From assembly GCA_028720205.1 (NCBI GenBank), contig JAQYLE010000039.1, positions 1 to 64,000 on the forward strand: DNA of 64,000 nucleotides. The letters run 5' to 3'. The notes beneath the pieces are model-generated. The model worked only from the letters and a program-made list of their open reading frames with translations. It was not told the DNA's origin and ran no database searches. A program made the position numbers and the translations under genes. Source of the stretch: Clostridia bacterium (lineage in GTDB: Bacteria; Bacillota; Clostridia; Christensenellales; Borkfalkiaceae). Positions 17,071 through 35,432 of the stretch are shown here, piece after piece (the first letter of the stretch is position 1; every line of letters begins with the position of its first letter).

Positions 17071-18450
<1,380 letters not shown>

Positions 18451-18541: not shown

Positions 18542-18654
18542 CAGCCGTCAAAATAGCGCATAGAAAACAACCGATACGGCGTTGAATATCCGCGTATTAT
18601 TTGCATATAAACGCGTTTCAGGGAAGTATTTTCCCAAGTAAAAAAACAAAGATT

Positions 18655-18697
18655 TGTTCAAAATAAAACAATAATAAGAAAATAGAGTCGATTGACT
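18655..18697 (+). promoter_or_regulatory. Upstream element, copy 1 (shared with 23486-23528)
   Basis: Begins TGTTCAAAATAAAACAATAA. It matches the element at 23486 in 36 of 43 positions and has exactly the same 37-bp distance from its first base to the -35 hexamer. Candidate activator site for the AraC regulator encoded at 22522-23334. Confidence 0.6.
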
Positions 18698-18720
18698 GAA
18701 ACGCGCGGCGGTGCTACAAT
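18692..18720 (+). promoter_or_regulatory. Promoter of repeat-protein gene 1
   Basis: TTGACT, 17-bp spacer, TACAAT, about 40 bp upstream of the start codon and directly downstream of the shared element. Confidence 0.65.
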
Positions 18721-18761
18721 TTAAGCGCAATAAAAATAAAAACGCGCTTAAAGGAGGGAAA

Positions 18762-20474
18762 ATGAAAACCAAAAAAATTTCAATCGTAGTATTGTCGGCG
18801 TTGGCGGCTATCCTGTTCGCGCTGGCGGGCATTTTTGCGATCGGCGCGAAAACGAACGGCAAAGCAAGCGCGGAAGACGCGCCCGTAATCACGCTGGGCA
18901 GCGGAAAATGGGCGAGTCCGGATTATACTTTAACGACAAACGGTACCACGTGGACGGGTACGCTGGCAAACGGCGGATATTATTACGGCAATATCTATCC
19001 TGTTTCAAACGGTTCGTTCGAAACGGCGGTTAAAATTTATTTTACGCCGATAGCGGATAACGCTGCGGCCGCCAACTTCAGATTTCACCTTGCCGACTAT
19101 TCCGGCGCGGCGGAAGTAAAGCAATTTGTAATAAAAAAAACAGAGCCTTTCACGAGAGCAGACGTATCCTGTTATTTCGATAAGAATTATCTGGTTTCTT
19201 TTTCATCATGGAATGCCGAGCCGAAAATCGTAGAATTGACAACCGTAACCCTCGGCACGGGACGATGGGCGACGGATTCTTCAAAAACGGTAAGTTTGAA
19301 TAATTCGACGTGGAGCGGGGCGTTGCTTTCCGGATACCACTACGGCAATTTGTATTCGAGAGACGGATTGTTGTATTCGGGCGCGTACATTGACAAAAAC
19401 GCGAACGCAACCAATACCGAGTCAAATATTATTTTTAATTTGGGAAAAGTGACGGGGGGTGACGAGATAAGCGAATTCGTTGTAAAAGCAAACACTCTTT
19501 TCGCCAAAGGCGACAATTCCAGCGCGTTATGCGTGGATAAAGATTATTTCATCAAGTACGGCAAATGGGAAAGCGCCCCTGCCGTAATGCCGCTTGCAGA
19601 CGTAGTAAGCGTAACGCTCGGCGAGGGAAAGGGTACCGATTTAGAGACAAAGAGAATTTCGTTTAATAATTCCGTATGGAGCGGCGTGCTGGCAAACGGC
19701 GGATATTATTACGGCAATATTTATGCTTTGGACGGAACGAAATTCGAAGCCGTTTCTTCAAGTGCGCTGCCCGTATATATAATTCCCGGCGCTTCAAACG
19801 CTGCGGCTAACATCGTCATCGATTTGTCTAACGTACAAAACGCTTCCGACATAACTGAATTCGTACTTAAAAAGAGCGAAGCGTTTACAAGGGCGGGTGT
19901 TCCATTCTACTTCGATCAAGATTACGTAATTACTTGTAATTGGGGCGGCGTGCCTAACGTTTCCTGCAACTTTACAATGAATACGGGCGCGGCTATCCGG
20001 CTGGGCGAAGTGAACGGGTTAAGGTTCAGCGCAAACGTTGCCAAGTCCGTGGTGGAAGGTTATAGGAACGCGGGGTATACCGTTTCCGCGGGTATGGTGA
20101 TTCTGCCGTACGATTACATAGAAAAGTACGGCGACTTTTCCGCTACGAACGTGTTCGGCGAGGCGTACAAAGGCGTTCGGATTATCGATCTTGCGGCGGA
20201 ACTTATCGAAGAAGACGAGGAAACCTACCGCATTAACGGCTCTATCGTTGAAATTAAAGACGAGAATCTGCAAAGAGCGTTTGTGGGCAGGGCGTATCTG
20301 AAACTTGAAAAAGGCGGCGGCGTTACCTATATTATGTCCGCTTATGCCGATTTTAACATTGCCAACAACTCGCGTACGGTAATGGATATCGCTCAGGCGG
20401 CGTACGACGACTCGGGTACGTCCGAAGAAAATAAAACTGCTTTACAGACCTTGTATTTAAGTAAAAAAAAATGA
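18762..20474 (+). CDS. Secreted protein with three YYYGNIY/YFDKDY repeats
   Basis: A 570-aa exported protein of unknown function. The start ATG at 18762 follows AAGGAGGGAA (the track start is 51 bp too early). A signal peptide ends near GKASA-ED. Three tandem repeats of about 90-120 residues follow. Each has a xTLGxGxW opening, NxxxWxG, (Y)YYGN(I/L)Y, a (Q/E)FV(I/L/V)K stretch and a closing YFDxDYxxxxxWxxxP. After them comes a ~170-residue domain (INTGAAIRLGEVNGLRF-like to AYDDSGTSEENK) that I do not recognise. The gene ends in a run of nine A, then TGA overlapping the ATG of the DUF4838 gene. It may be the N-terminal half of one longer protein. The paralogue at 23651 shares the signal peptide and promoter element. 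Confidence 0.8.
   Translation: MKTKKISIVVLSALAAILFALAGIFAIGAKTNGKASAEDAPVITLGSGKWASPDYTLTTNGTTWTGTLANGGYYYGNIYPVSNGSFETAVKIYFTPIADNAAAANFRFHLADYSGAAEVKQFVIKKTEPFTRADVSCYFDKNYLVSFSSWNAEPKIVELTTVTLGTGRWATDSSKTVSLNNSTWSGALLSGYHYGNLYSRDGLLYSGAYIDKNANATNTESNIIFNLGKVTGGDEISEFVVKANTLFAKGDNSSALCVDKDYFIKYGKWESAPAVMPLADVVSVTLGEGKGTDLETKRISFNNSVWSGVLANGGYYYGNIYALDGTKFEAVSSSALPVYIIPGASNAAANIVIDLSNVQNASDITEFVLKKSEAFTRAGVPFYFDQDYVITCNWGGVPNVSCNFTMNTGAAIRLGEVNGLRFSANVAKSVVEGYRNAGYTVSAGMVILPYDYIEKYGDFSATNVFGEAYKGVRIIDLAAELIEEDEETYRINGSIVEIKDENLQRAFVGRAYLKLEKGGGVTYIMSAYADFNIANNSRTVMDIAQAAYDDSGTSEENKTALQTLYLSKKK
20463..20471 (+). other. A9 homopolymer at ORF junction (possible slippage site)
   Basis: Nine A form the last three Lys codons of the upstream ORF and the first base of the next ATG. 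A -1 shift, or one extra A in the transcript, fuses the two frames without a stop. No Shine-Dalgarno precedes the downstream ATG. Confidence 0.6.
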
Positions 20475-22204
20475 ATTTTGTAACTGACGGAAACACGAAT
20501 TATTGTATTAAAGTTCCGCAGGGCGCGTCTTCTATGATCGGCTATGCGGCGAGCGAGTTGCAAACGCTGTTTGCCGAGGCGACGGGCGCCGCTCTTTCCG
20601 TGGGCGACGGCGGCGAAAGATTCGTCAGCCTTGGCAGAACGGAAGAATTTATCAACGCGGGATACTCCGTAACCGAGGCGGAAACGGGCAAGACGGGCTT
20701 TATTATAAAAACGGACGACAAAGGCAACGTTTTTATTGCGGGGAGCGAGGACGTAGGCACGCTGAACGGCGTTTACGGCTTTTTGGAAAAAACGCTTAAT
20801 TTCGACTGTTTTACCAAGGGCGTATATCATATCGACAAGGTAAGCGAATTATCTTTTATGCCGTTCAACCTTACCGAAAAGCCGAGTTTCGATTACAGAC
20901 AGGTGAATTATGCGGAACTGCGCGAAGACGAAACCACTTACCGCCGTATGCGCATGCAACCTGCGCCCGAACAGTACGTTACGGGCAACGCCTATCACAA
21001 TTCGATAGAAATTCTCACGTATAAACGGGTGTTAAACGGCGAAAGCAAAGACGACGTTATCAAAGAATATACCGCAAGCGGTTGGATAAACAACGGGCAA
21101 CTGTGCTATTCTGCCGCGGATATGCGCGCGGCGTTTATCGAAAGTCTTAAATTGTATCTGCAATCCAAGTATTGTAATCTTTCGCGCAATCTTATGGTGA
21201 TCGGCATGGAAGACGCGGTGACCTGGTGCGACTGTTCCGCTTGCGGCGCCGCCCCTTCCAAGGTTTACGCGGAGTTTATGAACGCCGTGGCGGAGGCGAT
21301 TAACGCGGAGCGCGAAAGCGCGGGCGAATCCCCCGTTACTTTTCTGATGTTCGCGTACTACTATACGCTGGAACCGCCTAAGGGCGTTACTTTAAACAAG
21401 AACGTGGGCGTGTTGTTCGCTCCCATTAAAGCGAGGTTCACGCTGGGGCTTACCGACGCGGAAAACGCCATGTACGAAACGGCGCTTGCCGGCTGGGCGG
21501 CGCTTACCGACAATTTGTACGGCTGGACGTATAACGCGTATTTCGGGCAGACCCTCGTTATGTACGATACGTTCGGCGTATTGCAGGAAAATTACAAACT
21601 GCTTTTGAAGTACGGCGTGAAAGGGCTGTACGATCAGACGGAATCGTATATGGCGGTATCTTCGGGCTTCGGGCGGCTGAAAGGATACCTGCAATCCAAA
21701 CTTTTGTGGAACGTGAACGCGGACGCGGAAGCGCTGACGGATAAATTTTTCAACGCCGTTTACGGCAATGCGGCGGAAACGATGAAAACGGTGTTTAACG
21801 AAACGCGCGCGTACTACAAACACCTGTACGAAACGGCAGATAAATTCAACGGCCAGACGGGGTTGGCGGATTCCGATAAAAGAAAATATTCCGAAGGCTC
21901 GGTGGATTTTGCCGCAAGTTATGCCTGCTTACAAAGCGGCGGTTCGGAATACGCCGCGTTCAAAACCAAACTGGAAGGCTGGATTTCCGCGCTGAATACG
22001 GCGAAATCCGCCGCCGCCGCAGAAGAAGCGGAAAGAATAAAATTAGAAACTCTGCAATACCGTTATCTGTATCTCAGAATTTACGGCGAAACGGATACGA
22101 TTACCAAAGCGGACTTTAAAACGGATATCGATTCCTTCGGAATCCTTTATTATAAAGAAGGCAAAAAAGTTACCGAACTCTGGCAGGAATGGGGGCTTGA
22201 ATAA
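20471..22204 (+). CDS. DUF4838 domain-containing protein
   Basis: A 577-aa protein of the DUF4838 group, which is associated with glycoside hydrolases. The N-terminal part resembles the alpha-glucuronidase/GH20 accessory domain (NYCIKVPQGASSMIGYAASELQ, ATGAALSVGD). The DUF4838 core has MRMQPAPEQYVTGNAYHN, then CDCSACGAAPSKVYAEFMNAVAEAIN, with EWG-type and aromatic motifs after. It has no signal peptide and no ribosome binding site, although DUF4838 proteins are normally extracellular. Its ATG overlaps the stop of the secreted repeat protein (ATGA) at an A9 run. Either it is translated by coupling, or it is the C-terminal part of a frameshift fusion of about 1150 aa that carries the upstream signal peptide. 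The catalytic activity is unknown. Confidence 0.8.
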   Translation: MNFVTDGNTNYCIKVPQGASSMIGYAASELQTLFAEATGAALSVGDGGERFVSLGRTEEFINAGYSVTEAETGKTGFIIKTDDKGNVFIAGSEDVGTLNGVYGFLEKTLNFDCFTKGVYHIDKVSELSFMPFNLTEKPSFDYRQVNYAELREDETTYRRMRMQPAPEQYVTGNAYHNSIEILTYKRVLNGESKDDVIKEYTASGWINNGQLCYSAADMRAAFIESLKLYLQSKYCNLSRNLMVIGMEDAVTWCDCSACGAAPSKVYAEFMNAVAEAINAERESAGESPVTFLMFAYYYTLEPPKGVTLNKNVGVLFAPIKARFTLGLTDAENAMYETALAGWAALTDNLYGWTYNAYFGQTLVMYDTFGVLQENYKLLLKYGVKGLYDQTESYMAVSSGFGRLKGYLQSKLLWNVNADAEALTDKFFNAVYGNAAETMKTVFNETRAYYKHLYETADKFNGQTGLADSDKRKYSEGSVDFAASYACLQSGGSEYAAFKTKLEGWISALNTAKSAAAAEEAERIKLETLQYRYLYLRIYGETDTITKADFKTDIDSFGILYYKEGKKVTELWQEWGLE

Positions 22205-22221
22205 AAAAGGAGAGAATTTTT

Positions 22222-22362
22222 ATGAAATACGTTAAACCGGAAATTATTATAAAAACAATCGGCAACGGCGGAATATATACCGACGTTATAACCGTCTCGG
22301 GCGAAACGGGAGGAACGCCGGACGACCCGTGGAGCAAAGATTCTTACACGATAGAAAAATAG
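22222..22362 (+). CDS. 46-aa peptide, unknown, not in ORF track
   Basis: A short ORF with a strong ribosome binding site (AAAGGAGAGAATTTTT-ATG) 17 bp after the DUF4838 gene and before its terminator. It begins MKYVKPEIIIKTIGNGG and continues DVITVSGETGG, ending DSYTIEK. The layout (MKKYxKPxI start, then acidic D(V/I)ITxSG, Gly/Pro-rich end) resembles many small orphan peptides of Clostridia. No modifying enzyme is adjacent. It is neither clearly secreted nor membrane-bound. The function is unknown. Confidence 0.65.
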   Translation: MKYVKPEIIIKTIGNGGIYTDVITVSGETGGTPDDPWSKDSYTIEK

Positions 22363-22403
22363 GCTTACGACGGAAGCGGTTATCGGGTTACGGAGAAGAC
22401 AAC

Positions 22404-22447
22404 GGGGCGGTGAAAACCTTTTACGGTTTTCGCCGCCCCGCTATTTT
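22404..22447 (+). terminator. Terminator of repeat protein-DUF4838-peptide unit
   Basis: 15-bp stem GGGGCGGTGAAAACC / GGTTTTCGCCGCCCC (one G-T wobble), 6-nt loop, followed by GCTATTTT. Confidence 0.8.
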
Positions 22448-22521
22448 AATTTTACGCCGTCTCCGCCGTCTCCGCCGAAAGACCCTGCCGCAAAAGCCGC
22501 GGCGCGCACCCGTTGCGGAAA

Positions 22522-23334
22522 CTAAGGCGACATATTGCGTACGGAAGTAGGCGTGGCGCCGTTGTATTTTTTAAACAGTTTGCAAAAATACGAAACGCTG
22601 TTAAAGCCGACGATCTCGCAGATTTGTTCTATGGTGTAATCGGTGGTGAGCAAAAGTATCTGCGCGTATTCGATTTTTCGGGCGTTGAAAAAATTGTTTA
22701 TCGGCACGCCGTAGTGCTTTTTGAATATGCGGCAGATATAACTGACGGAATAAGGATAGTGAGAAACGATTTCCGAAATCGATTGATTGAATTCTTCGGG
22801 AGAAGAAAGGTGTTTTGCAAGTTTTTCCACCCAACTGGGCGAATTTTTCTTTTTATTCTGTTTTAAAAATTCGTTCAGCAACGTGGTGACGATAACGCAT
22901 TCGAACCTGCGCTGTTCGGCGCGCGAACGGGCGGGCGTCTGAACAAGCAACTGCTCGAACGCGTTGATCTGTTCTACGCTGAAAGCGATGCGGCGGACGG
23001 GCTTGTCTTTCAGAAAATCGTACAGTTTCGCGTCGTATACGGCGCAGACGGCTTTGAAATATTCTAAGTTAATCAGCACGTCGCGGTGCAGAAAATCGTC
23101 CGATTGCGCAACAAACAGGTGTTTATCCTGCGGGAACAGCATAAACGCGTCCCCTGCGGATACGTTTATCGCGGCGTTGTTAAGATTGTGTTCGGCGGAA
23201 CCGGAAATAACGTAAAATACTTCCACGCAGTCGTGATAATGCGATTGGATTTTCTGTTTGGGAGTGATCTGCGACAAAATTTCTTTTGTGGATAAAGAAT
23301 TTAAAAAAATCGTTTTGGTATTCCCGTCGTCCAT
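22522..23334 (-). CDS. AraC family regulator with cupin sensor domain
   Basis: A 270-aa regulator. The N-terminal cupin-like domain has HYHDCVEVFYVISGSAEHNLN and AGDAFMLFPQDKHLF, a sugar-binding AraC arm. The C-terminal double HTH runs from HYPYSVSYICRIFKKHYGVPINNFFNARKIEYAQILL to YTIEQICEIVGFNSVSYFCKLFKKYNGATPTSVR. The ATG at 23334 is preceded by GGGAGG; the 55-residue hydrophobic extension in the track is spurious. It lies between two repeat-protein genes that share an upstream element, so it is the best local candidate for their activator. The ligand is probably a saccharide, by family analogy. Confidence 0.88.
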   Translation of the reverse strand: MDDGNTKTIFLNSLSTKEILSQITPKQKIQSHYHDCVEVFYVISGSAEHNLNNAAINVSAGDAFMLFPQDKHLFVAQSDDFLHRDVLINLEYFKAVCAVYDAKLYDFLKDKPVRRIAFSVEQINAFEQLLVQTPARSRAEQRRFECVIVTTLLNEFLKQNKKKNSPSWVEKLAKHLSSPEEFNQSISEIVSHYPYSVSYICRIFKKHYGVPINNFFNARKIEYAQILLLTTDYTIEQICEIVGFNSVSYFCKLFKKYNGATPTSVRNMSP

Positions 23335-23410
23335 GACAAACCTCCCTGTTGTTATTACCGCTTTGAAACCGCGGAAAACGGCGCGAACGCCGCGTTTGCC
23401 TGCGTTTTTT

Positions 23411-23439
23411 ATTTTACCAAATTTTACAAAAAAAAGCAA
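23411..23439 (-). promoter_or_regulatory. Promoter of the AraC/cupin regulator
   Basis: On the minus strand TTGCTT, 17-bp spacer, TAAAAT, 77 bp before the start. Divergent from the repeat-protein 2 promoter, with the shared element between them. Confidence 0.55.
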
Positions 23440-23485
23440 GCAAAGCAGCGTATAAAGCATGAAAATACCCGTTTTTTGATTTTTA

Positions 23486-23528
23486 TGTTCAAAATAAAAC
23501 AATAAAAAGCAAATAGAAACTATTGATA
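23486..23528 (+). promoter_or_regulatory. Upstream element, copy 2 (shared with 18655-18697)
   Basis: Starts with the same 20 bases as copy 1 and has the same 37-bp distance to the -35 box. It sits in the divergent region between the AraC/cupin gene and repeat-protein gene 2. Confidence 0.6.
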
Positions 23529-23550
23529 AATCGTATGATTATGATATAAT
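23523..23550 (+). promoter_or_regulatory. Promoter of repeat-protein gene 2
   Basis: TTGATA, 16-bp spacer, TATAAT. The leader to the start at 23651 is about 95 nt. Confidence 0.65.
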
Positions 23551-23650: not shown

Positions 23651-25708
23651 ATGAACACAAAGAGCAGAAAACTTTCAATCGCATTGCTTTCGGCACTGGC
23701 TGCGGTAGCGCTTGCGCTGGCGGGCATTTTTGCGATCGGCGCGAAAACGAACGGCAAAGCAAGCGCGGAAGACGCGCCCGTAATCACGCTGGGCACGGGC
23801 GGCACCGGCAGATGGGCAAGCGCCAACGAAAATATGTCGGTAAAATTCGGCAACGTTACGTGGACGGGCGAACTTGCGAACGGCGGCAATTATTACGGTA
23901 ATATATATTCGGTAGAAGACGGAACCAGATACGCTTCTCTTTCCGATCCTTCCGACGCAACGCCCGTTTATTTCACCCCGACCGCTTCGGGGGAAAACGG
24001 AAACTTCGTATTCTTTTTGAAAAACGTTGTGACGGCGGAAACCAAAGATAACATAAAGCAGTTTCTCATCAAAAAGACGGAGCCGTTTACGCGAGCGGGA
24101 GTTTCCTGTTATTTCGATAACGACTACGTCGTTACCTGCAACTGGGGCGGCGGACCTTCCGCTTCCGTATACGTTGCGCCCGCTACCGTCAGCCTCGGCA
24201 CGGGCGTCTGGTCCACGTCTACCAGCGCTTCCGGAGATCCGCGTTATACCGTTTCGATGAATTCTTCCGCAGACGACGGCTCCTTTATTAAAGGGTATTA
24301 TTACGGCAACATTTATTCTACGGACGGCAGCGTATATACGGGGGCGTATCTCGATTTTCTTGTAAAAGAAGGCGAGGAAGAAACCGCCTCGGGAAAAATC
24401 GTGGCGACTTTCACAAACGTGAAAGGCGCGGAAAAAATAACGGAATTTGTGCTGAAAAGCACCGATTTGTTTAAAAAAGGCGACGGAAGATGTCCGTTCT
24501 ACTTCGATAAAAATTACGTCGTCACCGTGAACTGGGACGGCGTGCCTGCGATAAGAGAAGACCTGCGCACGTTCGTTTCCCTGTCGGGCGGCGTTTCTTC
24601 CGACGAAGCCGAAAAATCGGTTACCGCAGGCGTAAGCGCGCTGAACGGAGTGGCGCCTTCGGGCGAGTACAAGGGCAACGTTTACCCTACTTCGGGCGAG
24701 AAGATAGAAAACGTAGTTTTTGCGATAGAAGCCGCGGAGGAAAGCAACGCGCTGAAAATAACGCTTCCCGATACTTCTGTTACCGATTTCGTGGTGAAAG
24801 CGGGCGAATCGTATGCCGGTACGGACGGGCGCGAAATTTACTTCGATAAAGATTACAGAATTACCCTTTCGTGGGGCGAAACTCCCGTAATCAAACAAGA
24901 CAACCGTATTTTCCTTACTCTTTCGGAAGGCGCGGCGACAACCGACGCAGCCGAAAAATCGGTTACCGTCGTTACGTCGGTGAGAGGAGCGGTGATCGGC
25001 GAAAAGGCGTACGAAGGTTATGCCGTGGATAAGAACGGCGAGAAGACGGGCGTTTCGCTTTACGTTACCGTCGGTACCGAAAACGCAACGGTTAAAGTCG
25101 TTCTCGATTCTACCGATACGGAGTTCTTCGCATTGAGAAAAGCGGATAAATTCGTTGACGAAGACGGCAACGAACTGTTCTTCAACAAAGACTGTACCGT
25201 AAGTTGCGTCTGGGGCGAAGAGGCGACGGTTACCGTTATAGGCGCAACCGAACACGTATGGAGCGATGAAAAGACGCATACGGGCGCGGATTGCACCGAA
25301 AAAAGTTACAAATACAAAGAATGTATCATTCACGGCGATACCGAAGTTACGGAAGAATTGCCCGACAATCATCGGTACGGCGACGTGATTACCGAAGATT
25401 CCACCTGCGCTCAAAAAGGCCGCACGTATAAAAAATGCGAGGTGTGCGGGCACGAGGAGAATTTAAGCGTCATCGAAAAGAAGGAACATACGCCGTCCGA
25501 TTGGATTACCGATACAAATCCCACTACCGAAGCGGAAGGTTCGGCGCATAAAGAATGTACGGCGTGCGGCGAAACGCTGGAAAGCAAAGTATTGCCCAAG
25601 GCCGAAAAGAGCGGTTGCTCCGGCAACGCGTTTGTAAACGCGATGATTCCCCTTACCGTTTCGGCGGCGGCGCTCTTCGTTTTGAAAAAGAGAAAAAACA
25701 AAGAATAA
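23651..25708 (+). CDS. Surface protein with four repeats, Cys-rich modules and C-terminal anchor
   Basis: A 685-aa exported protein. The signal peptide is nearly identical to that of the 18762 protein and ends at KASA-ED. Four tandem ~100-residue repeats of the same type follow, two well conserved (WTGELANGGNYYGNIY, CYFDNDYVVTCNWGG) and two degenerate (EIYFDKDYRITLSWGETPV, LFFNKDCTVSCVWGEEA). Then come short Cys-containing modules (CTEKSYKYKECIIHGD, CAQKGRTYKKCEVCGHEEN, HKECTACGETLESK) common in gut Firmicute surface proteins. The end is SGCSGNAFVNAMIPLTVSAAALF plus KKRKNKE, a membrane anchor without an LPXTG motif. The start ATG follows TTGGAGGAG. Likely a glycan- or host-binding surface protein; the exact role is unknown. 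Confidence 0.8.
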   Translation: MNTKSRKLSIALLSALAAVALALAGIFAIGAKTNGKASAEDAPVITLGTGGTGRWASANENMSVKFGNVTWTGELANGGNYYGNIYSVEDGTRYASLSDPSDATPVYFTPTASGENGNFVFFLKNVVTAETKDNIKQFLIKKTEPFTRAGVSCYFDNDYVVTCNWGGGPSASVYVAPATVSLGTGVWSTSTSASGDPRYTVSMNSSADDGSFIKGYYYGNIYSTDGSVYTGAYLDFLVKEGEEETASGKIVATFTNVKGAEKITEFVLKSTDLFKKGDGRCPFYFDKNYVVTVNWDGVPAIREDLRTFVSLSGGVSSDEAEKSVTAGVSALNGVAPSGEYKGNVYPTSGEKIENVVFAIEAAEESNALKITLPDTSVTDFVVKAGESYAGTDGREIYFDKDYRITLSWGETPVIKQDNRIFLTLSEGAATTDAAEKSVTVVTSVRGAVIGEKAYEGYAVDKNGEKTGVSLYVTVGTENATVKVVLDSTDTEFFALRKADKFVDEDGNELFFNKDCTVSCVWGEEATVTVIGATEHVWSDEKTHTGADCTEKSYKYKECIIHGDTEVTEELPDNHRYGDVITEDSTCAQKGRTYKKCEVCGHEENLSVIEKKEHTPSDWITDTNPTTEAEGSAHKECTACGETLESKVLPKAEKSGCSGNAFVNAMIPLTVSAAALFVLKKRKNKE

Positions 25709-25785: not shown

Positions 25786-26733
25786 ATGACCGATACAACC
25801 GAAGGCAAGCGCGTTAAAAAAAGCGACGCGCAAAAACGGGAAAAACTGTGGTTTATGATAAGCGTTCTGGCTTTGCCTACGCTGGGATTTCTGGTTTTTT
25901 TCGTTTACGTCAACTTCAATTCGTTTCTGATGGCGTTTCAACGGCCCGTATATACCGATACGGGACTGGTGGAAAAATTTTCGTTTGATAATTTCAGGCG
26001 TATTTTCACCGCGGGCGGCACGGATATGAAAGAACTGTTGGAAGCGCTGAAAAATACCATGTTGTTTTTCTTTGCGGATACGGCGGTGGTGTTTCCCATA
26101 TCGCTTTTAATGTGTTATTTCTTCTTTAAAAAGATAGCGGGCTACCGTTTTTTCAGATTCGTTTATTATATGCCTACCATCATTTCGTCCTCCGTGCTCG
26201 TCGTGCTTTTTAAATATTCGATAGGCGCGGGCGGAATTTTAGACGCGATTGCGACTTCGAAAGGCGAAACGTTTATCAGCCCGCTTACGCAGGAGCCGAA
26301 CGCGCTTTTTACCATTCTCTTTTACAGTATAGCGTTCGGTTTTGCGGGCAATATCATCGTTCTCGGCGGATCGATGAACGGAGTGAGCGCGGACGTTCTG
26401 GAAGCGGGGCAAATCGACGGCTGCAACTGGGTGCAGGAACTATTTTTGCTGATTATTCCGATGATGTGGCCTACGATTTCCACCATGGTAATTCTGAAAT
26501 TCACGGGCATTTTATCGGCAAGCGGACCCATTCTTGCCTTCACGAAAGGCGAACACGGCACGATGACTCTTTCGTACCTTTTGTACGCGCTTGTTTCCGG
26601 CTACGGAAAAACCAAAGATCTGTATTACGCCAGCGCGGTGGGCATGGTGATGACGTTGTTCGTATTTCCGCTTACCATGCTGATTAAGCATCTGATTTAC
26701 AGCGATAAAAAAGAGGAGGAAACGGCACTGTGA
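25786..26733 (+). CDS. Carbohydrate ABC transporter permease (MalF/UgpA type)
   Basis: First inner-membrane permease of a CUT1-type sugar importer, 315 aa, with six predicted helices. The first is FMISVLALPTLGFLVFFVYV, followed by TMLFFFADTAVVFPISLLMCYFF. The EAA loop that contacts the ATPase is NGVSADVLEAGQIDGCNWVQELFLLIIPMMWP (EAGQIDGC in place of EAAxIDGA). The ATG follows AAAGGAAG. Its stop overlaps the next permease start. There is no ATPase in the operon, so a shared MsmX-like ATPase elsewhere in the genome is expected. Confidence 0.92.
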   Translation: MTDTTEGKRVKKSDAQKREKLWFMISVLALPTLGFLVFFVYVNFNSFLMAFQRPVYTDTGLVEKFSFDNFRRIFTAGGTDMKELLEALKNTMLFFFADTAVVFPISLLMCYFFFKKIAGYRFFRFVYYMPTIISSSVLVVLFKYSIGAGGILDAIATSKGETFISPLTQEPNALFTILFYSIAFGFAGNIIVLGGSMNGVSADVLEAGQIDGCNWVQELFLLIIPMMWPTISTMVILKFTGILSASGPILAFTKGEHGTMTLSYLLYALVSGYGKTKDLYYASAVGMVMTLFVFPLTMLIKHLIYSDKKEEETAL

Positions 26734-27623
26734 AAACCGCTCGTCGTAACAAAATCAAAAAACCCGTATCACAGAAAGCCGTTTTCGGCATAGCCTTTGC
26801 GATTTTCTGCGTTTACGCGGCGTTTATTCTGTTTTTCTTTTTGTTCGCTTTTTTAATCGCGATTAAAGAAAACAACCGCGCCTTTTTAGAGGACCAGATC
26901 GCCGCAAGACTTTTTTCGTTTCCGGCGAAGCCCACTTTAAAGCACTTTGCGGAAGCGTTCAGCGAATGGACGGTGATCGACGGTGAAACCACGTATCTTA
27001 CGATGTTTTTCAATTCGGTGTGGATTTCTATCCTCGGTCCGTTGATTTCGGCGTTTACCACCGCAAGCGTTACCTACGTTCTGGTGTTTTACAGAACGGG
27101 GTATACCAAATGGCTCTATAAATTGGGCGTGTTCTTTGCCATACTGCCCCTGTACGGCGCATCGGGCGCGATGTACAAACTCGTTACCGATATAGGCATC
27201 ATCGATTCGCCGCTGATGTTTTTAACGAACATATCGCTGTTCGGCGGAAACTTCTTCTACTTTTACGCTTTTTATAAAGCGATCAGTTGGCAATATGCGG
27301 AAGCGGCGTTTATCGACGGCGCCAACCATTGGCAGGTGTATCTGAAAATCATGCTGCCCTTGCTGATTCCCGGCGCCACCGCGCTGTACATTATGGGGGT
27401 GATTTCCACGTGGAACGATTACGCCAACATCATCCTCTATTGGCAGAGTTATCCCACGCTTGCTTACGGCGCGTACGCGTACAGCGAAATTGCCAAATAC
27501 AACGCGAACAACCCCGCGTATTTTGCGGGCGTGCTCATTTCTATCGTACCTATTCTGTTGCTGTTTGCCGCCTTCCAGAACACCATTATGGAAAAGGTGC
27601 ATATCGGCGGACTGAAAGGCTGA
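26730..27623 (+). CDS. Carbohydrate ABC transporter permease (MalG type)
   Basis: Second permease of the importer, 297 aa. It has six predicted helices, beginning AVFGIAFAIFCVYAAFILFFFLFAF. The EAA loop is QYAEAAFIDGANHWQVYLKIMLPLLIPG, a good match to EAAxIDGAxxxxxFxxIxLP. The start is a GTG overlapping the stop of the first permease (GTGA), indicating translational coupling. The protein ends in a run of 8-bp DNA repeats that begins inside its last codons. Confidence 0.92.
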   Translation: MKTARRNKIKKPVSQKAVFGIAFAIFCVYAAFILFFFLFAFLIAIKENNRAFLEDQIAARLFSFPAKPTLKHFAEAFSEWTVIDGETTYLTMFFNSVWISILGPLISAFTTASVTYVLVFYRTGYTKWLYKLGVFFAILPLYGASGAMYKLVTDIGIIDSPLMFLTNISLFGGNFFYFYAFYKAISWQYAEAAFIDGANHWQVYLKIMLPLLIPGATALYIMGVISTWNDYANIILYWQSYPTLAYGAYAYSEIAKYNANNPAYFAGVLISIVPILLLFAAFQNTIMEKVHIGGLKG

Positions 27624-27674
27624 AAGGCTGAAAGAATGAAAGAATGAAAGGCTGAAAGAATGAAAGGCTGAAAG
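27611..27674 (+). repeat. Tandem 8-bp repeat (GCTGAAAG/AATGAAAG), eight units
   Basis: Eight contiguous octamers ending in TGAAAG, alternating GCTGAAAG and AATGAAAG, run from the last codons of the second permease across most of the gap to the binding-protein gene. Each unit carries a TGA. Confidence 0.9.
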
Positions 27675-27710
27675 TATTTCTTTACAAAAAACAAGGAGAA
27701 TTACGCAATC

Positions 27711-29291
27711 ATGAAAAAAATCACAAAAACGTTTGCAACGCTGCTCAGCGCCGCCGTCGTTTTTTCCTCGGGCGCCGCATGCAAAAAAAACGCGGACACG
27801 AGCGACACGCTGGTGATTACCGCCGCAAAACTCGGTTACGGGTTAGACTGGCTGAATTCCATGGCGGACGGCTGGTCGGCAAAGACGGGCAACAAAACGA
27901 AAATCGTGCAGAAAGTGGGAACTTCGGGCAACAACGCGATTACGGAAGAAATCGCCTCGCTCGCCTCTTCAAGCGATATATTCATTTACCGTACCGCCGA
28001 TTACGCCGACAAGGTATATCAAGGCGAAGTGAAACACGCGGGAGAAAAATACGACTGCGTGTATCTGGATCTCACCGACGTATACGATTCGGAAATAGAA
28101 GGAGAATCCGTAGCGGTAGGTGCGAAAATCGTGGATAAATACAAAACCGCGCTGAATGTGAACGGAAAATATTACGCCGTACCGTGGATAGAAGGCACGA
28201 TGGGGCTGATGCGCAACGTAACGCTGTGGAACAAACTCGGCTTAACCGACGCGGACGTTCCGCTTACCACGGATCAACTGAAAGAAACTTGCGACAAAAT
28301 TCTGGACGCGACCTCGGCGGACAGAAAGTATCAGAACGTCGCGCCCTTTATTTATTCCGCGGAAGACGAATATTACACAAGTTTTATCCCCGTGTGGTTT
28401 GCGCAGTACGAAGGCGTGCAGAATACCGAACGCTATAAGCAGGGACTCGATCCAGACGGGAAACTTTCGAAGAATATCTTCAATTACGACGGGTTCGAAG
28501 AAATGTTCAACGTAATAAACGATCTGCTGGATCCCGATAACGGCTATCAGCATTCCAAATCAAGTTCGCTGAACTTCACCGATATGCAGGGGCAGTTTTT
28601 GATGGAACAGGCGGTGTTCTGCGTGAACGGCGCGTGGATAGAAATTGAAATGGGCAACAGTTTCCCGGACGTTCAGATCGATTACGTAAAAACTCCCGTC
28701 ATCAGCGCGCTTGTCAAGAAAACGTCGTTCTACGATAAAAACGACGTAACGGGCGCGAACGACGAGAAACTTGCAACCTTGATAAAATACGTGGACGCTA
28801 ACAAGACGGGGTATAACGGCAAACCCGATTTCGCCACCGAAGCGGACGTGGATCTGGCGCGCGAAGCGAGAAACTACGGATATACCACGTTAAGCAGCAC
28901 GCACGTTCTTGTAGGGTCGTCGTATTCCAAAAAAACCGATATGATTAAAAGTTTTATCAGATATATGTATTCCGACGAAGGGCTGGATCTGTACTACCGC
29001 GCAACGGGCGGCGCAAGGCTCCCCGCGCAACGCGCCGCGGGCGCTTATCCTCAGGACGTCGCTGTGTCCGATTTTAAAAAGAGCGTAAACGCCATCGACG
29101 GGAACGAGATCCTCGTTTTCGCTTCCACGGCGAAGTTGTTTTCGGTGGGCGGCGTTTCCATCCGCGCGCTTAACGGCATTACCAACTACATTTCGGCTTT
29201 CGCTTCCAAAAAGATGACGCCGAGACAAGTGGTGCAGAAAAATCAGCAGTATATGTCCGACAACTGGTCGGTAATCGCTTCGAAATTATAA
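27711..29291 (+). CDS. Extracellular sugar-binding lipoprotein (family 1 SBP)
   Basis: Solute-binding protein of the CUT1 importer, 526 aa. The lipoprotein signal is TFATLLSAAVVFSSGAAC-KK with lipobox SGAAC, so it is anchored to the outer face of the membrane. The family 1 binding fold shows in GYGLDWLNSMADGWSAKTG, NGKYYAVPWIEGTMGLMRN, FVNGAWIEIEMGNSFPDV-like and SFIRYMYSDEGLDLYYRATGG. The ribosome binding site AAGGAGAA precedes the ATG. It lies downstream of both permeases. The ligand is not deducible, but neighbouring enzymes suggest an oligosaccharide. Confidence 0.92.
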   Translation: MKKITKTFATLLSAAVVFSSGAACKKNADTSDTLVITAAKLGYGLDWLNSMADGWSAKTGNKTKIVQKVGTSGNNAITEEIASLASSSDIFIYRTADYADKVYQGEVKHAGEKYDCVYLDLTDVYDSEIEGESVAVGAKIVDKYKTALNVNGKYYAVPWIEGTMGLMRNVTLWNKLGLTDADVPLTTDQLKETCDKILDATSADRKYQNVAPFIYSAEDEYYTSFIPVWFAQYEGVQNTERYKQGLDPDGKLSKNIFNYDGFEEMFNVINDLLDPDNGYQHSKSSSLNFTDMQGQFLMEQAVFCVNGAWIEIEMGNSFPDVQIDYVKTPVISALVKKTSFYDKNDVTGANDEKLATLIKYVDANKTGYNGKPDFATEADVDLAREARNYGYTTLSSTHVLVGSSYSKKTDMIKSFIRYMYSDEGLDLYYRATGGARLPAQRAAGAYPQDVAVSDFKKSVNAIDGNEILVFASTAKLFSVGGVSIRALNGITNYISAFASKKMTPRQVVQKNQQYMSDNWSVIASKL

Positions 29292-29307
29292 AGATAACGG
29301 AGAAAAT

Positions 29308-31794
29308 ATGAAAAAATTTTTAATTCGCTTAACGACGTTTCTGGCGGCGCTTACCGTAACGGCGCCTCTTTCCGCGTGTTCGGAAAACGGGAACGATGAA
29401 AAAAACGAAACGGCGGAAGTGTGGGGAACGTATTCCACGGCAAAAATAGGGCAGGATTCTTCGAACAACGAAAAATTCGTTAAAAACGAAGCGCGTCTCG
29501 ACGTTCAGATGATGAAAAACGAATCGGAGGGCGGGCAGATTATCGTTACCGCGGCAAAAGACTACGACTCGTTCGATCTGGAAGTTTCCGATCTGAAAAC
29601 CGCCGACGGAAAGGTGTTTGCCGCTTCCAACGTTACGGCGTATCAGGAAAAGTATATTCAGGTGCGGCAGAAGCGCGACTATAACGATATGTACGTGATA
29701 GGCGAATACGTGCCCGATATGTTGCTTCCCCTTTCCGTATCGAAACAATACGGCGAAAACGTGATTAAAAAAGGAAATAACCAGGGCATATACGTGGAAT
29801 TTTCTTCCGCGGGGGTGCCGGCGGGGAAGTATACGGGCGCTTATAAACTTACCGTGGGAAGCGAAAAATACGAGATTCCCGTTTCGGTGGAAGTATGGGA
29901 TATCGAATATGCGGGCAGACGCAACTTCCAATCTTGCTTCGTACTGTATCAGTCGTCGCTTTTAAAATCGGAATACGATAATTCCGACGAGATGACGGAC
30001 GCATACACGCAATTCTTTCTCGATTATAAAGTAGACGTATGCCTGCATAACTTCAACCGCAACGATTTTTCTTCTTACGGAGAAAAATGGCTGCAATCCG
30101 TGGAAAAGTATAAAGACAACCCTAATTTCAACTCGGTTTATATTCCCTATCAGTTCGCGCCGAATTACACGGCGTACACTTCTGCGGGAACGGCTACCGC
30201 GGCGGCGGAACAATGTATAAAATACGTTACCGCGCTTGCAAAAACGTCCAGCGCCGAATATCCGTATATCGATTACGCGTATTTCTATCCTTTCGAACTG
30301 GACGAAGCGGACGTGGTTACGCGCAGGCAGCCTTACGCCGAAAATCTGCTGAAACAGGGCGGCGAGATAGAGCAGACGCTGCAACTGGCGGTTGACAGAC
30401 TGGAAAGCGAGGGCTATTTCGATTCCCTTTCCGATCAGGCGTATGCGGAACATCTGAAACAGGCGATTCTGAATATTCCTACGATTTTTACCAACGTAAA
30501 TTTCAAGGGCGACTGGGTGGATTCGTACGACGCGTGTTTCTGCCCGTATTTAAGCGTGTTCAACAGCGGCGCTTCCGCCGATCATTACCTTGCTTCCGCA
30601 AACGAATCGGGCAAAGACGTATGGGCGTATACCTGCGTGGGACCCAATTATCCCTATCCCACGTTCCACCTCGACGATTACAACCTGGGCACGAGAATTT
30701 CCGGCTGGATGGAAAAGTATTACGGTATAAACGGCTATTTGTACTGGTCGGCGAGCAACGCCTCTTATTCGGGCGAAGAATACAAGTATCTCGACCCGTA
30801 TGAAGACGCAGACAGATATCCGGGCGCGGACGGCGACGGCTATCTTGTTTATCCCGGCAGTTATTACGGCCTCAAAACGCCGTTGCCTTCGTTGCGGCTT
30901 GTGGCGTACAGGGATTCTATGGACGATTACGATATGCTTTGCGTATACGAAAGCCTGCTGAAAGCGTATTATAAAAAATACGACCTCGGCGAACTCGACT
31001 TCAACGATTACGCGGAACATCTGTATGCCGAACTGTTTACCGGCGCGATTTACGATACGGACGATGCGAAACTTTTCGCCGCGAGGGAAGAGTTGGCAAG
31101 CCGAATCGCCGCGCTTTCCGGCGACGAAGAAATTCTCGTTACCAAAAAGACGACGGCGCAGGGCTGTTTTGTTGAAATTTATTCCAACGTATGGGCGCTG
31201 GATATCAACGGCGCTACTCAAATGGGCGAAAAAACGGGCAAAGACCGTTATAAATATACGCTTACGGACGCCGCCGCTTTACGCTCAGTAACGGTTTCGA
31301 CGGATAACAGAACGGAAGCATACGAATTTTTCGCCGCAAACGTACAGGCGCTTTCCCCCTCGAACGTTTCCGCGGGCGAGAACAGCGAAGTTACGGTAAC
31401 GGACGGCGCGGCGCAGGCGGTATTGCGTTCGGTGCTCAAAGGCGACGAGATCGGCTCTTCTACGGTGGCATACAATCCGTACGTTACGTTTGCGTTAGAC
31501 AAAAAAGAAAACGCAAAATACGTATGCTTTACTATCGCCAATCTCAGCGGCACGGCTACGGATTTTTATTTCGATTTAACTTCGGGACTTCTCGTTAACG
31601 AAATCGGTTCCGCCTATCTGAAAGCGGGCGCGAGCAAGAGAGTGCGAATAAAAATTCCCGACGGAATTACTGTAGGAAACGGCGCGGAACTTACCGTTCG
31701 CGTACCTAACGTGTTTATGGGTGAAAACAACGAGTACGAACTATACGCAGACCGTACCGTATCCGTTTCCGACGTGTACTTTGAATGCGAATAA
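29308..31794 (+). CDS. DUF4091 / GH123-like lipoprotein
   Basis: An 828-aa lipoprotein (LAALTVTAPLSAC lipobox). The N-terminal beta-sandwich is followed by a TIM-barrel-like region and the DUF4091 block (GDGYLVYPGSYYGLKTPLPSLRLVAYRDSMDDYDML). This block is shared with GH123 beta-N-acetylgalactosaminidases. A candidate acidic catalytic segment is YFYPFELDEADV. A C-terminal beta-rich ~200-residue module may bind carbohydrate. The ATG follows ACGGAGAA, 16 bp after the binding protein. Probably an extracellular glycosidase that trims the glycan before import; the specific activity is unproven. Confidence 0.85.
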   Translation: MKKFLIRLTTFLAALTVTAPLSACSENGNDEKNETAEVWGTYSTAKIGQDSSNNEKFVKNEARLDVQMMKNESEGGQIIVTAAKDYDSFDLEVSDLKTADGKVFAASNVTAYQEKYIQVRQKRDYNDMYVIGEYVPDMLLPLSVSKQYGENVIKKGNNQGIYVEFSSAGVPAGKYTGAYKLTVGSEKYEIPVSVEVWDIEYAGRRNFQSCFVLYQSSLLKSEYDNSDEMTDAYTQFFLDYKVDVCLHNFNRNDFSSYGEKWLQSVEKYKDNPNFNSVYIPYQFAPNYTAYTSAGTATAAAEQCIKYVTALAKTSSAEYPYIDYAYFYPFELDEADVVTRRQPYAENLLKQGGEIEQTLQLAVDRLESEGYFDSLSDQAYAEHLKQAILNIPTIFTNVNFKGDWVDSYDACFCPYLSVFNSGASADHYLASANESGKDVWAYTCVGPNYPYPTFHLDDYNLGTRISGWMEKYYGINGYLYWSASNASYSGEEYKYLDPYEDADRYPGADGDGYLVYPGSYYGLKTPLPSLRLVAYRDSMDDYDMLCVYESLLKAYYKKYDLGELDFNDYAEHLYAELFTGAIYDTDDAKLFAAREELASRIAALSGDEEILVTKKTTAQGCFVEIYSNVWALDINGATQMGEKTGKDRYKYTLTDAAALRSVTVSTDNRTEAYEFFAANVQALSPSNVSAGENSEVTVTDGAAQAVLRSVLKGDEIGSSTVAYNPYVTFALDKKENAKYVCFTIANLSGTATDFYFDLTSGLLVNEIGSAYLKAGASKRVRIKIPDGITVGNGAELTVRVPNVFMGENNEYELYADRTVSVSDVYFECE

Positions 31795-31803
31795 GGAGAG
31801 AAT

Positions 31804-34434
31804 ATGAGGAAAAACAAAAAAATTCTTACCATCGGCTTTGCAACGCTTTCCTGTTTCTTTTTATCTTTGGCGTATGCGTGCGGCAAAACGACGGAAACGG
31901 AAGCGGGCAAAGGAAACGTGCAGGAATCTCCGCGCGAATACGCGGACGGTACTTACCTCCTCTGCGATTTTGAGAACGCCGCCGATCTGTATACGGTAAA
32001 GCCCTGTTTTACCAATAAACTCAACGCTTACGGAAAAGCGGGCGTGGTGTTCGGCGAGCAGTATAAAGGCGACTCTCCCGATAAAACGGGCAGTTTGAAA
32101 TACGCTTACGAAAAGGCGAACGACTCGGTAAAATCGGTGAGTTCTCTTGCTTTTTATATAGAAAAATCCGCCTGCCCCGATATTAACAGGGCTAAAATAC
32201 TTTCGTTCGGCATCAGCGTTTACAACGCTTCCGATACGGTGAAAACCGTAAAACTCGGGTTGGTTTCTTCTTCTAAAACCGTGTGCGACGTCAGCGCGGC
32301 GCTTAACGCGGGCTGGAACGACATATCCTTTTCGGTCGATCCCGTTTTCGCAATGTACCGCATAGACGAAGTGAAAGCCTTCAACGTGGAATTCCCGACG
32401 GGCGAAGCGTGCGATTATTACTTCGACGACTGGACGGTGACGATAGGCGAAAGCCGGCTTAACGATATGCAGAAATCCGCGGTGAATTTTGCGGAAACGG
32501 TATCTTCGCTTGACGGCAACGTTACGCTCGATTCCGCGCAGACGCTGCTTTCCGCCAACGCGCTGTACGCCGGGCTGGACGAAAACTGCCGCTCTGCGGT
32601 GACGGCGTATTATAACGTTTATCAGAGCGCGGTGGGGTACTTTTTCGATCTGCTTGCCAAACAATCGGGCGATACGGTATTCTATTTCGGCGAAGAATAC
32701 GGCGTATTGCAGGTATCGGCAACCGACGGCATGAACTGCGCTTACGATGGCGAAATACAATTGCTCGGTGAAAAAGGAGCGCTCGGTTTCGGCTTTAACG
32801 ACAAGGGCGATTATAAAACCAACGTTCATATTCCTACTCTGATGATTTCCGCTTTCGATTACGTTGCGGTAAACGCTAAAAACGAATCGGACGCGGACGT
32901 ATCGGTTGTGCTGAACGCTTCGGAAGCGGAAACGTTGGAGGCGGGCGGCGAACGCACGCTGTACTTTCCCGCCGCACAGTTAAGCGAATCGGGCAACAGC
33001 ATTACCTTTAAAACGGCGGGCGCTACGAACGGTAACGTATATCTGGGCAATCTTGTCGGCGCGGCGCTGCAGACGGACGGCATTTATTCGCTCGCCCTCG
33101 GGGCGGAAGGTTACGCCTCGGAAGACGCCGCCGTAACGGAAGAAGACGGCAGATATACGATAACCGCCGCAACGGAAGGCACGTACAGAATAACGCCCGT
33201 AAAAACGGGCGATCCGCTTAACGTAGCCGAAAGCGTTACGTTCGGCGTACGGTTCGGCGAAAGCGGCAGCGTAGAAGCGTACGACGAAAACGGCAATCTG
33301 CTGCGCCGCGACGTGCTCGGCGCCGGCTTGCAGACGGTATATTACGGCAGCAAAATTTATAATGCGCTTTCGTACCTTACGATAAACGTCGGCGCGGACG
33401 GCGTTACGTTTACGCCGATGCTGCGTTCCAGAACGACGGATACCGATTACGTGGATATCGTTTTGAAAAACGACTCGGTGGTAAAAGGCGAAAACGTTAC
33501 GATAGATACTTTCCGCGAAGCGATGTACTATTTAAGCGCTTACGAAAGCATGACGCTGTATAAACAACTGTATTTAAAGAACAACGAAAAGGAAGTTTAC
33601 GGCGACATCACCGCGCGCGCGGCAAAAGTTTCCGGACTGATGGCGGGCGTCATCGAACGCTATAAAAACGGCGAGGCAAGCGATACCGACGGAAAACTGC
33701 TGCTCGATTTCGCCGCCTCTTACCGCAAAATGAAGTGCGTAGATAAACTTACGGCAGAGCAACTGAAAATTGTTTCCGAAGCCTCCGCCGCTCTTCTGAA
33801 ATACGAATATACCGTTTACGATTTCGTGAATCCGTTAACCGCGAAAATGTTTATACCGCTGTATAACGATACGCTCCCCAACGGCAAAGCGTATTATCAG
33901 TGGTCGGGCAGCGCGTATCTCGGAAATAAAGACGGCAACGCGGTGATGACGTTTAAAGTTTCAGTGCCTTCCAAAGAATTGTATATGTACGCGAGGTACG
34001 ACTATTCTTCGGTGCAGAGCGCGCTTTCCGATTACGATTACGTAACGTTCAGAATTTACAACGGCTGTTCCGCCGCGCGCGACATCGTGTTTATTCCCTA
34101 CGCGTGGTCGTCCACCGTTAAAGTGTTAACGCTTAAAGCGAATTCGTGGAACGATATCTGTTTATCCGCAAGCGAATTTACGCGCGCGGGGTACTTCGTA
34201 ATCCGTTCGGTAAACGCGGGCGATACCTTCTGTTTCGGCAACGTTACCGCCTGTTCGTATCAACACGTGCAATCTTGTATAGACGCGTTGCCCGAGCCCT
34301 CCGCCGTTACGGAAGAGGACAGGGCGGCGATAAATCTGGCGCGGGAAAAATACGAAAAACTTTCCGATAAAGGAAAGGCGAAAATAAATGCGGAAAGACT
34401 GACGAAGTGCGAAGAAGCGCTTTCAAAACCGTGA
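31804..34434 (+). CDS. Large lipoprotein of unknown function
   Basis: An 876-aa lipoprotein (ATLSCFFLSLAYAC lipobox) coupled 9 bp downstream of the DUF4091 gene with AAGGAGAG. I recognise no catalytic domain. There are two jelly-roll-like modules, one near residues 40-210 (LLCDFENAADLYTV ... NVEFPTGEACDYYFDDWTV) and one near 680-820 (YVTFRIYNGCSAARDIVFIPYAWSS ... VIRSVNAGDTFCFGNV). Both resemble carbohydrate-binding modules. A helical segment before each and a C-terminal helical tail (INLAREKYEKLSDKGKAKINAE) look like FIVAR-type spacers. Probably a surface glycan-binding protein serving the importer, by context. Confidence 0.75.
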   Translation: MRKNKKILTIGFATLSCFFLSLAYACGKTTETEAGKGNVQESPREYADGTYLLCDFENAADLYTVKPCFTNKLNAYGKAGVVFGEQYKGDSPDKTGSLKYAYEKANDSVKSVSSLAFYIEKSACPDINRAKILSFGISVYNASDTVKTVKLGLVSSSKTVCDVSAALNAGWNDISFSVDPVFAMYRIDEVKAFNVEFPTGEACDYYFDDWTVTIGESRLNDMQKSAVNFAETVSSLDGNVTLDSAQTLLSANALYAGLDENCRSAVTAYYNVYQSAVGYFFDLLAKQSGDTVFYFGEEYGVLQVSATDGMNCAYDGEIQLLGEKGALGFGFNDKGDYKTNVHIPTLMISAFDYVAVNAKNESDADVSVVLNASEAETLEAGGERTLYFPAAQLSESGNSITFKTAGATNGNVYLGNLVGAALQTDGIYSLALGAEGYASEDAAVTEEDGRYTITAATEGTYRITPVKTGDPLNVAESVTFGVRFGESGSVEAYDENGNLLRRDVLGAGLQTVYYGSKIYNALSYLTINVGADGVTFTPMLRSRTTDTDYVDIVLKNDSVVKGENVTIDTFREAMYYLSAYESMTLYKQLYLKNNEKEVYGDITARAAKVSGLMAGVIERYKNGEASDTDGKLLLDFAASYRKMKCVDKLTAEQLKIVSEASAALLKYEYTVYDFVNPLTAKMFIPLYNDTLPNGKAYYQWSGSAYLGNKDGNAVMTFKVSVPSKELYMYARYDYSSVQSALSDYDYVTFRIYNGCSAARDIVFIPYAWSSTVKVLTLKANSWNDICLSASEFTRAGYFVIRSVNAGDTFCFGNVTACSYQHVQSCIDALPEPSAVTEEDRAAINLAREKYEKLSDKGKAKINAERLTKCEEALSKP

Positions 34435-34568: not shown

Positions 34569-35423
34569 ATGATAGACGAACGAGTCAGAGAGTTTGTATT
34601 TCCCGTTAAAATCAAGGCGACGGGCGGCGCGGTGGAAGGCGAGAATTTTTTACTTAAAGAAAAGATTCTGCAGATCGCTACGGTAGAAGACGAACTCTGT
34701 AAAATGAGCGGTAAGAGCCATGTTATTCTTGATTTCGGCAAAGAATTATACGGCGGAATCAGAATTCTTACCAAAAGAACGTATAAAAAAAGCAAGGAAA
34801 ACGCGCCTGTTTTAATGCGATTGCGTTTCGGAGAATCATTGACGGAAACGTGCGCGGAATTAGGCGAAAAGAACGCTACCAACGACCACGCCGTAAGGGA
34901 TATGACGATAACGCTCGGTTCTCATTCCGATATGGAATTCGGCAATACAGGGTTCAGATTTTTGCGTATCGATCTTCTATCCGACGACGACGCGATTCTT
35001 ATCAAATCGGCGGTGGCGGTATACGTGCACCGTGATTTACGCCCCGCAGGCGGTTTTCACTGCGACGACGAAAGACTCAACGAAATATATTCCGTTGCTT
35101 CGCGCACCTGTATGCTTTGTATGCAGAGTATGTTATGGGACGGCATAAAGCGCGATAAACTCGTATGGATGGGAGATATGCACCCGGAAATGATGACGAT
35201 TCAGTGCCTGTTCGGTTACGATAAATGTATCGACGACGCGCTGGACTTCGTAGTGGCGCAGTTTAAACTCCCCGAATACATCAACTTAAAACCTTCGTAC
35301 TCGTTGTGGTTCGTTGTAGTATTGTACGATTGGTACATGCAGAACGGCGATAAAAACCTTTTGATAAAACACGCGGGATATATCGAAGATCTGTTCGATA
35401 ATCTCGGCGCGCTGGTAGACTAA
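34569..35423 (+). CDS. Rhamnosidase-like (GH78-type) protein, N-terminal part cut by in-frame TAA
   Basis: First 284 residues of a GH78-like alpha-L-rhamnosidase-related protein. A beta-sandwich (VILDFGKELYGGIRI, MRLRFGESLTETCAELGE) leads to the start of the (alpha/alpha)6 barrel (FHCDDERLNEIYSVASRTCMLCMQSMLWDGIKRDKLVWMGDMHPEM). The ATG follows TTGGAGAGCGGCAA. There is no signal peptide, so it would act in the cytoplasm on imported fragments. Translation stops at TAA 35421-35423 and the family homology continues in the same frame immediately afterwards. This looks like a nonsense mutation; GAA or AAA to TAA would suffice. Confidence 0.75.
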   Translation: MIDERVREFVFPVKIKATGGAVEGENFLLKEKILQIATVEDELCKMSGKSHVILDFGKELYGGIRILTKRTYKKSKENAPVLMRLRFGESLTETCAELGEKNATNDHAVRDMTITLGSHSDMEFGNTGFRFLRIDLLSDDDAILIKSAVAVYVHRDLRPAGGFHCDDERLNEIYSVASRTCMLCMQSMLWDGIKRDKLVWMGDMHPEMMTIQCLFGYDKCIDDALDFVVAQFKLPEYINLKPSYSLWFVVVLYDWYMQNGDKNLLIKHAGYIEDLFDNLGALVD

Positions 35424-35432
35424 AACGGAGAT

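Follow-up and report, generated by a model that had tools for sequence, protein, structure and literature searches.

The window, by which we mean the whole stretch of 64,000 nucleotides that was analysed, carries two neighbouring operons on the plus strand, each headed by a gene for a secreted repeat protein, and a gene for an AraC-family regulator that runs on the minus strand between them. The genes, together with the promoters and operators predicted for them, are as follows:

18657..18694, plus strand: predicted operator A, with direct half-sites at 18657-18673 (TTCAAAATAAAACAATA) and 18678-18694 (GAAAATAGAGTCGATTG), a 21-bp period, and an end in the TTG of the -35
18692..18720, plus strand: predicted core promoter A, TTGACT, 17 bp, TACAAT (18715-18720), from its sequence and from spacing as in homologues
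18762..20474, plus strand: first gene of operon A, encoding repeat protein A (secreted, 570 aa), an open reading frame and paralogue of protein B
20471..22204, plus strand: second gene of operon A, encoding a 577-aa DUF4838 protein that also has a GH67 N-terminal-like domain (PF16126, 2.3e-43; PF03648)
22522..23334, stop included, minus strand: AraC-family regulator, 270 aa, with a cupin N-terminal domain and two C-terminal helix-turn-helices
23410..23439, minus strand: candidate araC promoter, TTGCTT, 17 bp, TAAAAT, divergent from promoter B, a weak core match (4.7 bits)
23488..23525, plus strand: predicted operator B, with direct half-sites at 23488-23504 (TTCAAAATAAAACAATA) and 23509-23525 (GCAAATAGAAACTATTG)
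23523..23550, plus strand: predicted core promoter B, TTGATA, 16 bp, TATAAT (23545-23550), from its sequence
23651..25708, plus strand: first gene of operon B, encoding repeat protein B (secreted, 685 aa), an open reading frame and paralogue of protein A
25786..34434, plus strand: remainder of operon B, namely two sugar-type ABC permeases, a substrate-binding protein, a GH123-like protein and an 876-aa lipoprotein-like protein (open reading frames, Pfam, NCBIfam)

The repeat proteins are 47-51% identical over their aligned N-terminal parts; no Pfam match was found for repeat protein A, and neither the genome nor the genus yielded another full-length relative. The operon A regulator, like the repeat proteins, is without close relatives in the genus. 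Last in operon A lies a 46-codon open reading frame (22222-22362, MKYVKPEII...) with a good ribosome-binding site, and a tRNA-Arg gene (CCG, 18341-18416) lies directly 5' of the operon. An integration site based on this tRNA was considered and rejected, since a second copy of the tRNA end is absent from the window. Two inverted repeats accompany promoter A: GGGAAgtatTTTCCC at 18621-18635, 5' of operator A, and TTTAAGCGC...GCGCTTAAA at 18720-18752, between the -10 and the ribosome-binding site, each a possible second-regulator site or leader hairpin.

An earlier note on this DNA had described a 43-bp element shared by the promoters of the two repeat-protein genes, and its description of the copies was borne out. 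In an ungapped comparison, 18655-18697 matches 23486-23528 at 36 of 43 positions, bases 1-20 being identical, and each copy begins 37 bp ahead of its -35, counted from first base to first base (TTGACT at 18692, TTGATA at 23523). Because the -35 begins 37 bp in, the 43-bp element includes it as its last six bases. Between upstream regions A and B, the best ungapped 43-mer has 37 of 43 matches, and 400 dinucleotide shuffles of the two regions, used as a chance control, gave a mean of 24.7 (sd 1.17) and a maximum of 30. When up to three mismatches were allowed, the 20-mer common to the copies was found only twice in the 1.94-Mb genome, in which the note had proposed to look for further copies, and the window likewise holds these two occurrences and no third. 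The AraC/cupin gene (22525-23334 without its stop) is indeed situated between both copies, on the minus strand, according to the open reading frame and its Pfam matches.

The statement that the surrounding DNA differs also holds, as nothing aligns from the element to the start codons, which lie 64 bp (A) and 122 bp (B) past the -35. Since the downstream genes are paralogous, the two promoters are probably related by descent through an old local duplication; a recent long duplication, which the note had named as an explanation that would undo its reading, does not account for the pair. As there is no alignable sequence from the element to the signal-peptide codons, the element was retained while the DNA around it diverged. 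The signal-peptide DNA itself is near-identical (18762-18900 and 23651-23795), and over residues 15-45 the same codon is used at 26 of 27 identical residues (96%), compared with 46% elsewhere, a pattern suggestive of strong constraint or of a recent gene conversion. That the pair is a relic of tandem duplication of the repeat-protein genes, left by chance or by partial gene conversion and bound by no regulator, would agree with the paralogy of these genes and with their near-identical signal-peptide stretch. We nevertheless consider it highly improbable, given that the element, although followed by unalignable DNA, shares its register with a motif that was derived independently from other genomes and is described below.

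The refuting case named in the note, a lack of the element upstream of orthologues, presupposes an orthologue of the regulator, and none with more than 37% identity came up among the genus and family genomes that were searched; a regulator scan of named genomes yielded distant relatives only, and an order-wide regulator search added one homologue, which ends at a contig edge. At least one further AraC homologue is encoded in the host genome (G000:C16, roughly 30-32% identical). In the comparison with related genomes that the earlier note had called for, the element as a literal sequence is not conserved: across 398 family genomes, the 20-mer with two mismatches allowed occurs at 14 places outside the window, and these are attributed to chance because a reversed-pattern control gives about as many. 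One of the 14, at L035, was rejected as a real copy because it sits in a permease-matching, i.e. coding, stretch. With both the regulator and the literal 20-mer unconserved in relatives, the loci of distant homologues were therefore examined. Several of these homologues adjoin operons of the order DUF4838 protein, permease, permease and substrate-binding protein, the kinds of genes present in the window.

In the upstream regions of the homologues, a direct repeat was spotted by eye before the motif search. The motif was trained on 13 upstream regions of distant AraC homologues, and the window was left out of the training. The resulting 38-bp motif, GTCAATAtAGagcAaaAtTTtGTCAATgtAGtGTATTG, consists of 17-bp direct half-sites with a 21-bp period and ends in the TTG of the -35. 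In a scan of the 127,926 positions of the window (both strands), it places operator A at rank 1 and operator B at rank 8, in the same register; with the base composition of the window, the ranks are 1 and 3, and none of 500 column-shuffled matrices equalled the motif at both sites. Both window sites have the direct-repeat half-site form (about 17 bp, period about 21 bp) of a class-II operator of the AraC/XylS family, and half-site 2 of operators A and B deviates from the GTCAAT consensus. A pattern obtained from all 27 homologue regions jointly was rejected as an operator, because on the opposite strand it resembles the core promoter of the araC genes themselves (TTGACA...TATAAT). The literal 43-bp sequence is local and the operator architecture is the conserved part, and the same build and spacing recur, as predicted sites, beside distantly related regulators in many related bacteria.

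These homologous sites also bear on the choice between an activator site and an UP-like element, which the earlier note had offered side by side. The element is A-rich and lies 5' of the -35, as an UP element of RNA polymerase does, and its A-runs are about 10-11 bp apart, which would suit an UP element, or A-tract DNA with an intrinsic bend, in contact with the alpha subunit of RNA polymerase and with no specific protein involved. However, an UP element is conserved as A/T composition, and the equivalent positions in the homologues are sequence-specific boxes, GTCAAT ... GTCAAT ... ATTG, rather than A/T tracts. These position-specific non-A/T boxes covary with the regulator, and the element spans from about -72 into the -35 itself. 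The UP-like or bent-DNA explanation is accordingly rated as extremely improbable, and the activator half of the proposal is well supported by register, spacing and covariation.

The spacing to the -10 is fixed at the homologous regulators. In nearly all training sites the -10 begins exactly 20 bp past the motif, the last 3 bp of which are the TTG of the -35, so that the proximal half-site overlaps the -35 at a constant distance from the -10. The offset of 20 is also seen at four sites outside the training stretches, of which L142:8734, L146:9378 and L146:16299 precede second or third operons of the same loci; the link of L144:13072 to a gene is less clear. Among held-out homologue loci, a near-consensus -10 stands at offset 20 in 13 of 35, and at any other offset in no more than 4; motif and spacing are present in only about one-third of the more distant homologues. 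In the window, the -10 follows the ATTG of the operator by 20 bp at A and by 19 bp at B. Two homologue loci have another direct repeat of this type near the araC start (L137:4951-4988 and L139:9490-9527), which suggests autoregulation.

A sequence model of operator plus promoter was built from 20 homologue sites, again with the window left out, and was run over the whole genome. Full-length matches are restricted to the two promoters, A (16.4 bits) and B (11.4 bits). The other matches were rejected as operators, since mainly the core-promoter part was matched, and the best of them, L205, is without an AraC gene in its 3-kb neighbourhood. Because only A and B are matched at full length, the regulon is probably local and would consist of operons A and B; the divergent araC gene perhaps belongs to it as well.

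AraC-type proteins bear two helix-turn-helices (HTHs). The regulator in the window matches the Pfam families Cupin_2, AraC_binding, HTH_18 and HTH_AraC, i.e. it combines a ligand-binding N-terminal domain with an AraC-type double HTH; its best NCBIfam score of 59.2 bits, against an AraC cut-off of 208, is far below the curated cut-offs for AraC, RhaS and MelR. Across 26 homologues, HTH1 residues covary with half-site positions 1-7 (box A) and HTH2 residues with positions 9-16 (box B). All 11 of the box-cell pairs with z>4 fall in the HTH1-box A or HTH2-box B blocks, by a statistic that ignores kinship, and none of 5000 random helix labellings of the columns reached the observed block contrast, although neighbouring helix columns are not independent. 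An Arg in HTH1 (C-R-x-F) pairs with C at position 3 in 14 of 15 cases, compared with 3 of 11 in its absence (Fisher p=0.0008, kinship ignored). The window regulator carries this Arg, and operators A and B both read TTC, with C at position 3. The covariation indirectly supports a predicted assignment of box A in each half-site to HTH1 and of box B to HTH2.

If the site is an AraC-type operator, the local AraC protein might still act as a repressor, or another AraC-type paralogue of the genome might be the main binder. The additional homologue G000:C16 would be available for the latter role, and the -35 hexamers of A and B are nearer to the consensus than those of most homologues, so the promoters could fire unaided. 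We nevertheless regard both variants as unlikely. A half-site that ends at the -35 has the position typical of class-II activation, and in Caldicellulosiruptor, sites of the AraC family 5' of mapped promoters have been taken as activator sites (PMC8579813); moreover, the regulator gene lies between both sites, its HTH1 residues suit them, and the operator-plus-promoter model found no other full-length site in the genome.

It is thus very probable, though predicted from sequence, that both copies serve the AraC/cupin protein of the intervening gene as tandem-half-site operators, through which it would activate the two neighbouring operons in class-II style. We infer, as separate points, binding by the local protein, occupancy of the site by a dimer, activation rather than repression, and the presence of a ligand. 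Each half-site would present box A near its start and box B about 10 bp further, with the direct repeat following after 21 bp; the half-site period of AraC is 21 bp. Given a 17-bp half-site repeated at 21 bp, the four HTHs of two protomers could, between about -70 and -33, contact consecutive major grooves along a single face of the DNA, and, because the TTG of the -35 closes the proximal half-site, the second protomer could be placed against RNA polymerase, as in class-II activation. The cupin domain would sense the ligand, probably a sugar from the glycan processed by the locus, and the ligand-bound regulator would activate operon A, with repeat protein A and the DUF4838/GH67N-like enzyme, and operon B, with repeat protein B, the sugar-type ABC transporter and the GH123-like enzyme.

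This kind of system is already known, and the present site and its regulator are newly described. At the Pm promoter, XylS recognizes two 15-bp direct repeats, each comprising a box A and a box B that are 6 bp apart, and the sites of XylS and RNA polymerase overlap (PMC5481539). The window sites resemble such class-II sites of the AraC/XylS family (XylS at Pm, AraC at araI1-I2) in their direct-repeat half-sites with box A and box B, the proximal one reaching the -35. They differ in the boxes, which are TTCAAAAT/GAAAAT in the window and GTCAAT-type in the homologues, and, unlike in the XylS and AraC systems, the window regulator would serve two paralogue-headed operons with ABC-type glycan uptake. 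In the carbohydrate loci of Caldicellulosiruptor bescii, AraC-family regulons with tandem repeats have been predicted, the regulators being predicted activators (PMC8579813). As in the window, a local AraC-family regulator is found by a CUT1 ABC transporter and glycosidases, with tandem repeats 5' of the promoter, a likeness that is drawn from their description; the C. bescii repeats are described with large spacers, unlike those of the window.

The glycan-uptake locus thereby gains a concrete predicted regulator, a binding site and a two-operon regulon. More generally, the fixed geometry of AraC-type operators relative to the -10 makes it possible to find them among distant paralogues, even without an orthologue, and the covarying helix and box positions offer a testable start for site prediction for many AraC regulators in these genomes. 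With an averaged 17-bp half-site matrix, the first-ranked position in the window is 18547-18563 (plus strand, GTCAAAATAGCGCATAG), a candidate distal half-site 110 bp 5' of operator A, which may act as an auxiliary site at a distance or belong to a second promoter (TATAAA around 18606). A broader reading, conceivable but doubtful, is that the regulator belongs to a large, fast-diversifying AraC subfamily of one uncultured family, with rigid geometry and a readable helix-to-box code, and that operon A is additionally controlled, by looping or from tandem promoters, through the distal third half-site at 18547. If the subfamily reading were true, the operator sequence would be predictable from the two recognition helices.

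As to the inducer, a uronate or a rhamnose-containing glycan is our guess, made because of the DUF4838/GH67N-like protein, the neighbouring rhamnosidase-like fragments and the uxaC/uxaA-type genes. The GH78 rhamnosidase domains at 34569-36224 are distributed between two open reading frames (34569-35423 and 35433-36224), with the catalytic domain mostly unmatched, and are perhaps a broken gene. On the minus strand, genes of the glucuronate isomerase (UxaC), altronate dehydratase and mannitol-dehydrogenase-family types (36315-40431) adjoin the locus and suggest uronate catabolism.
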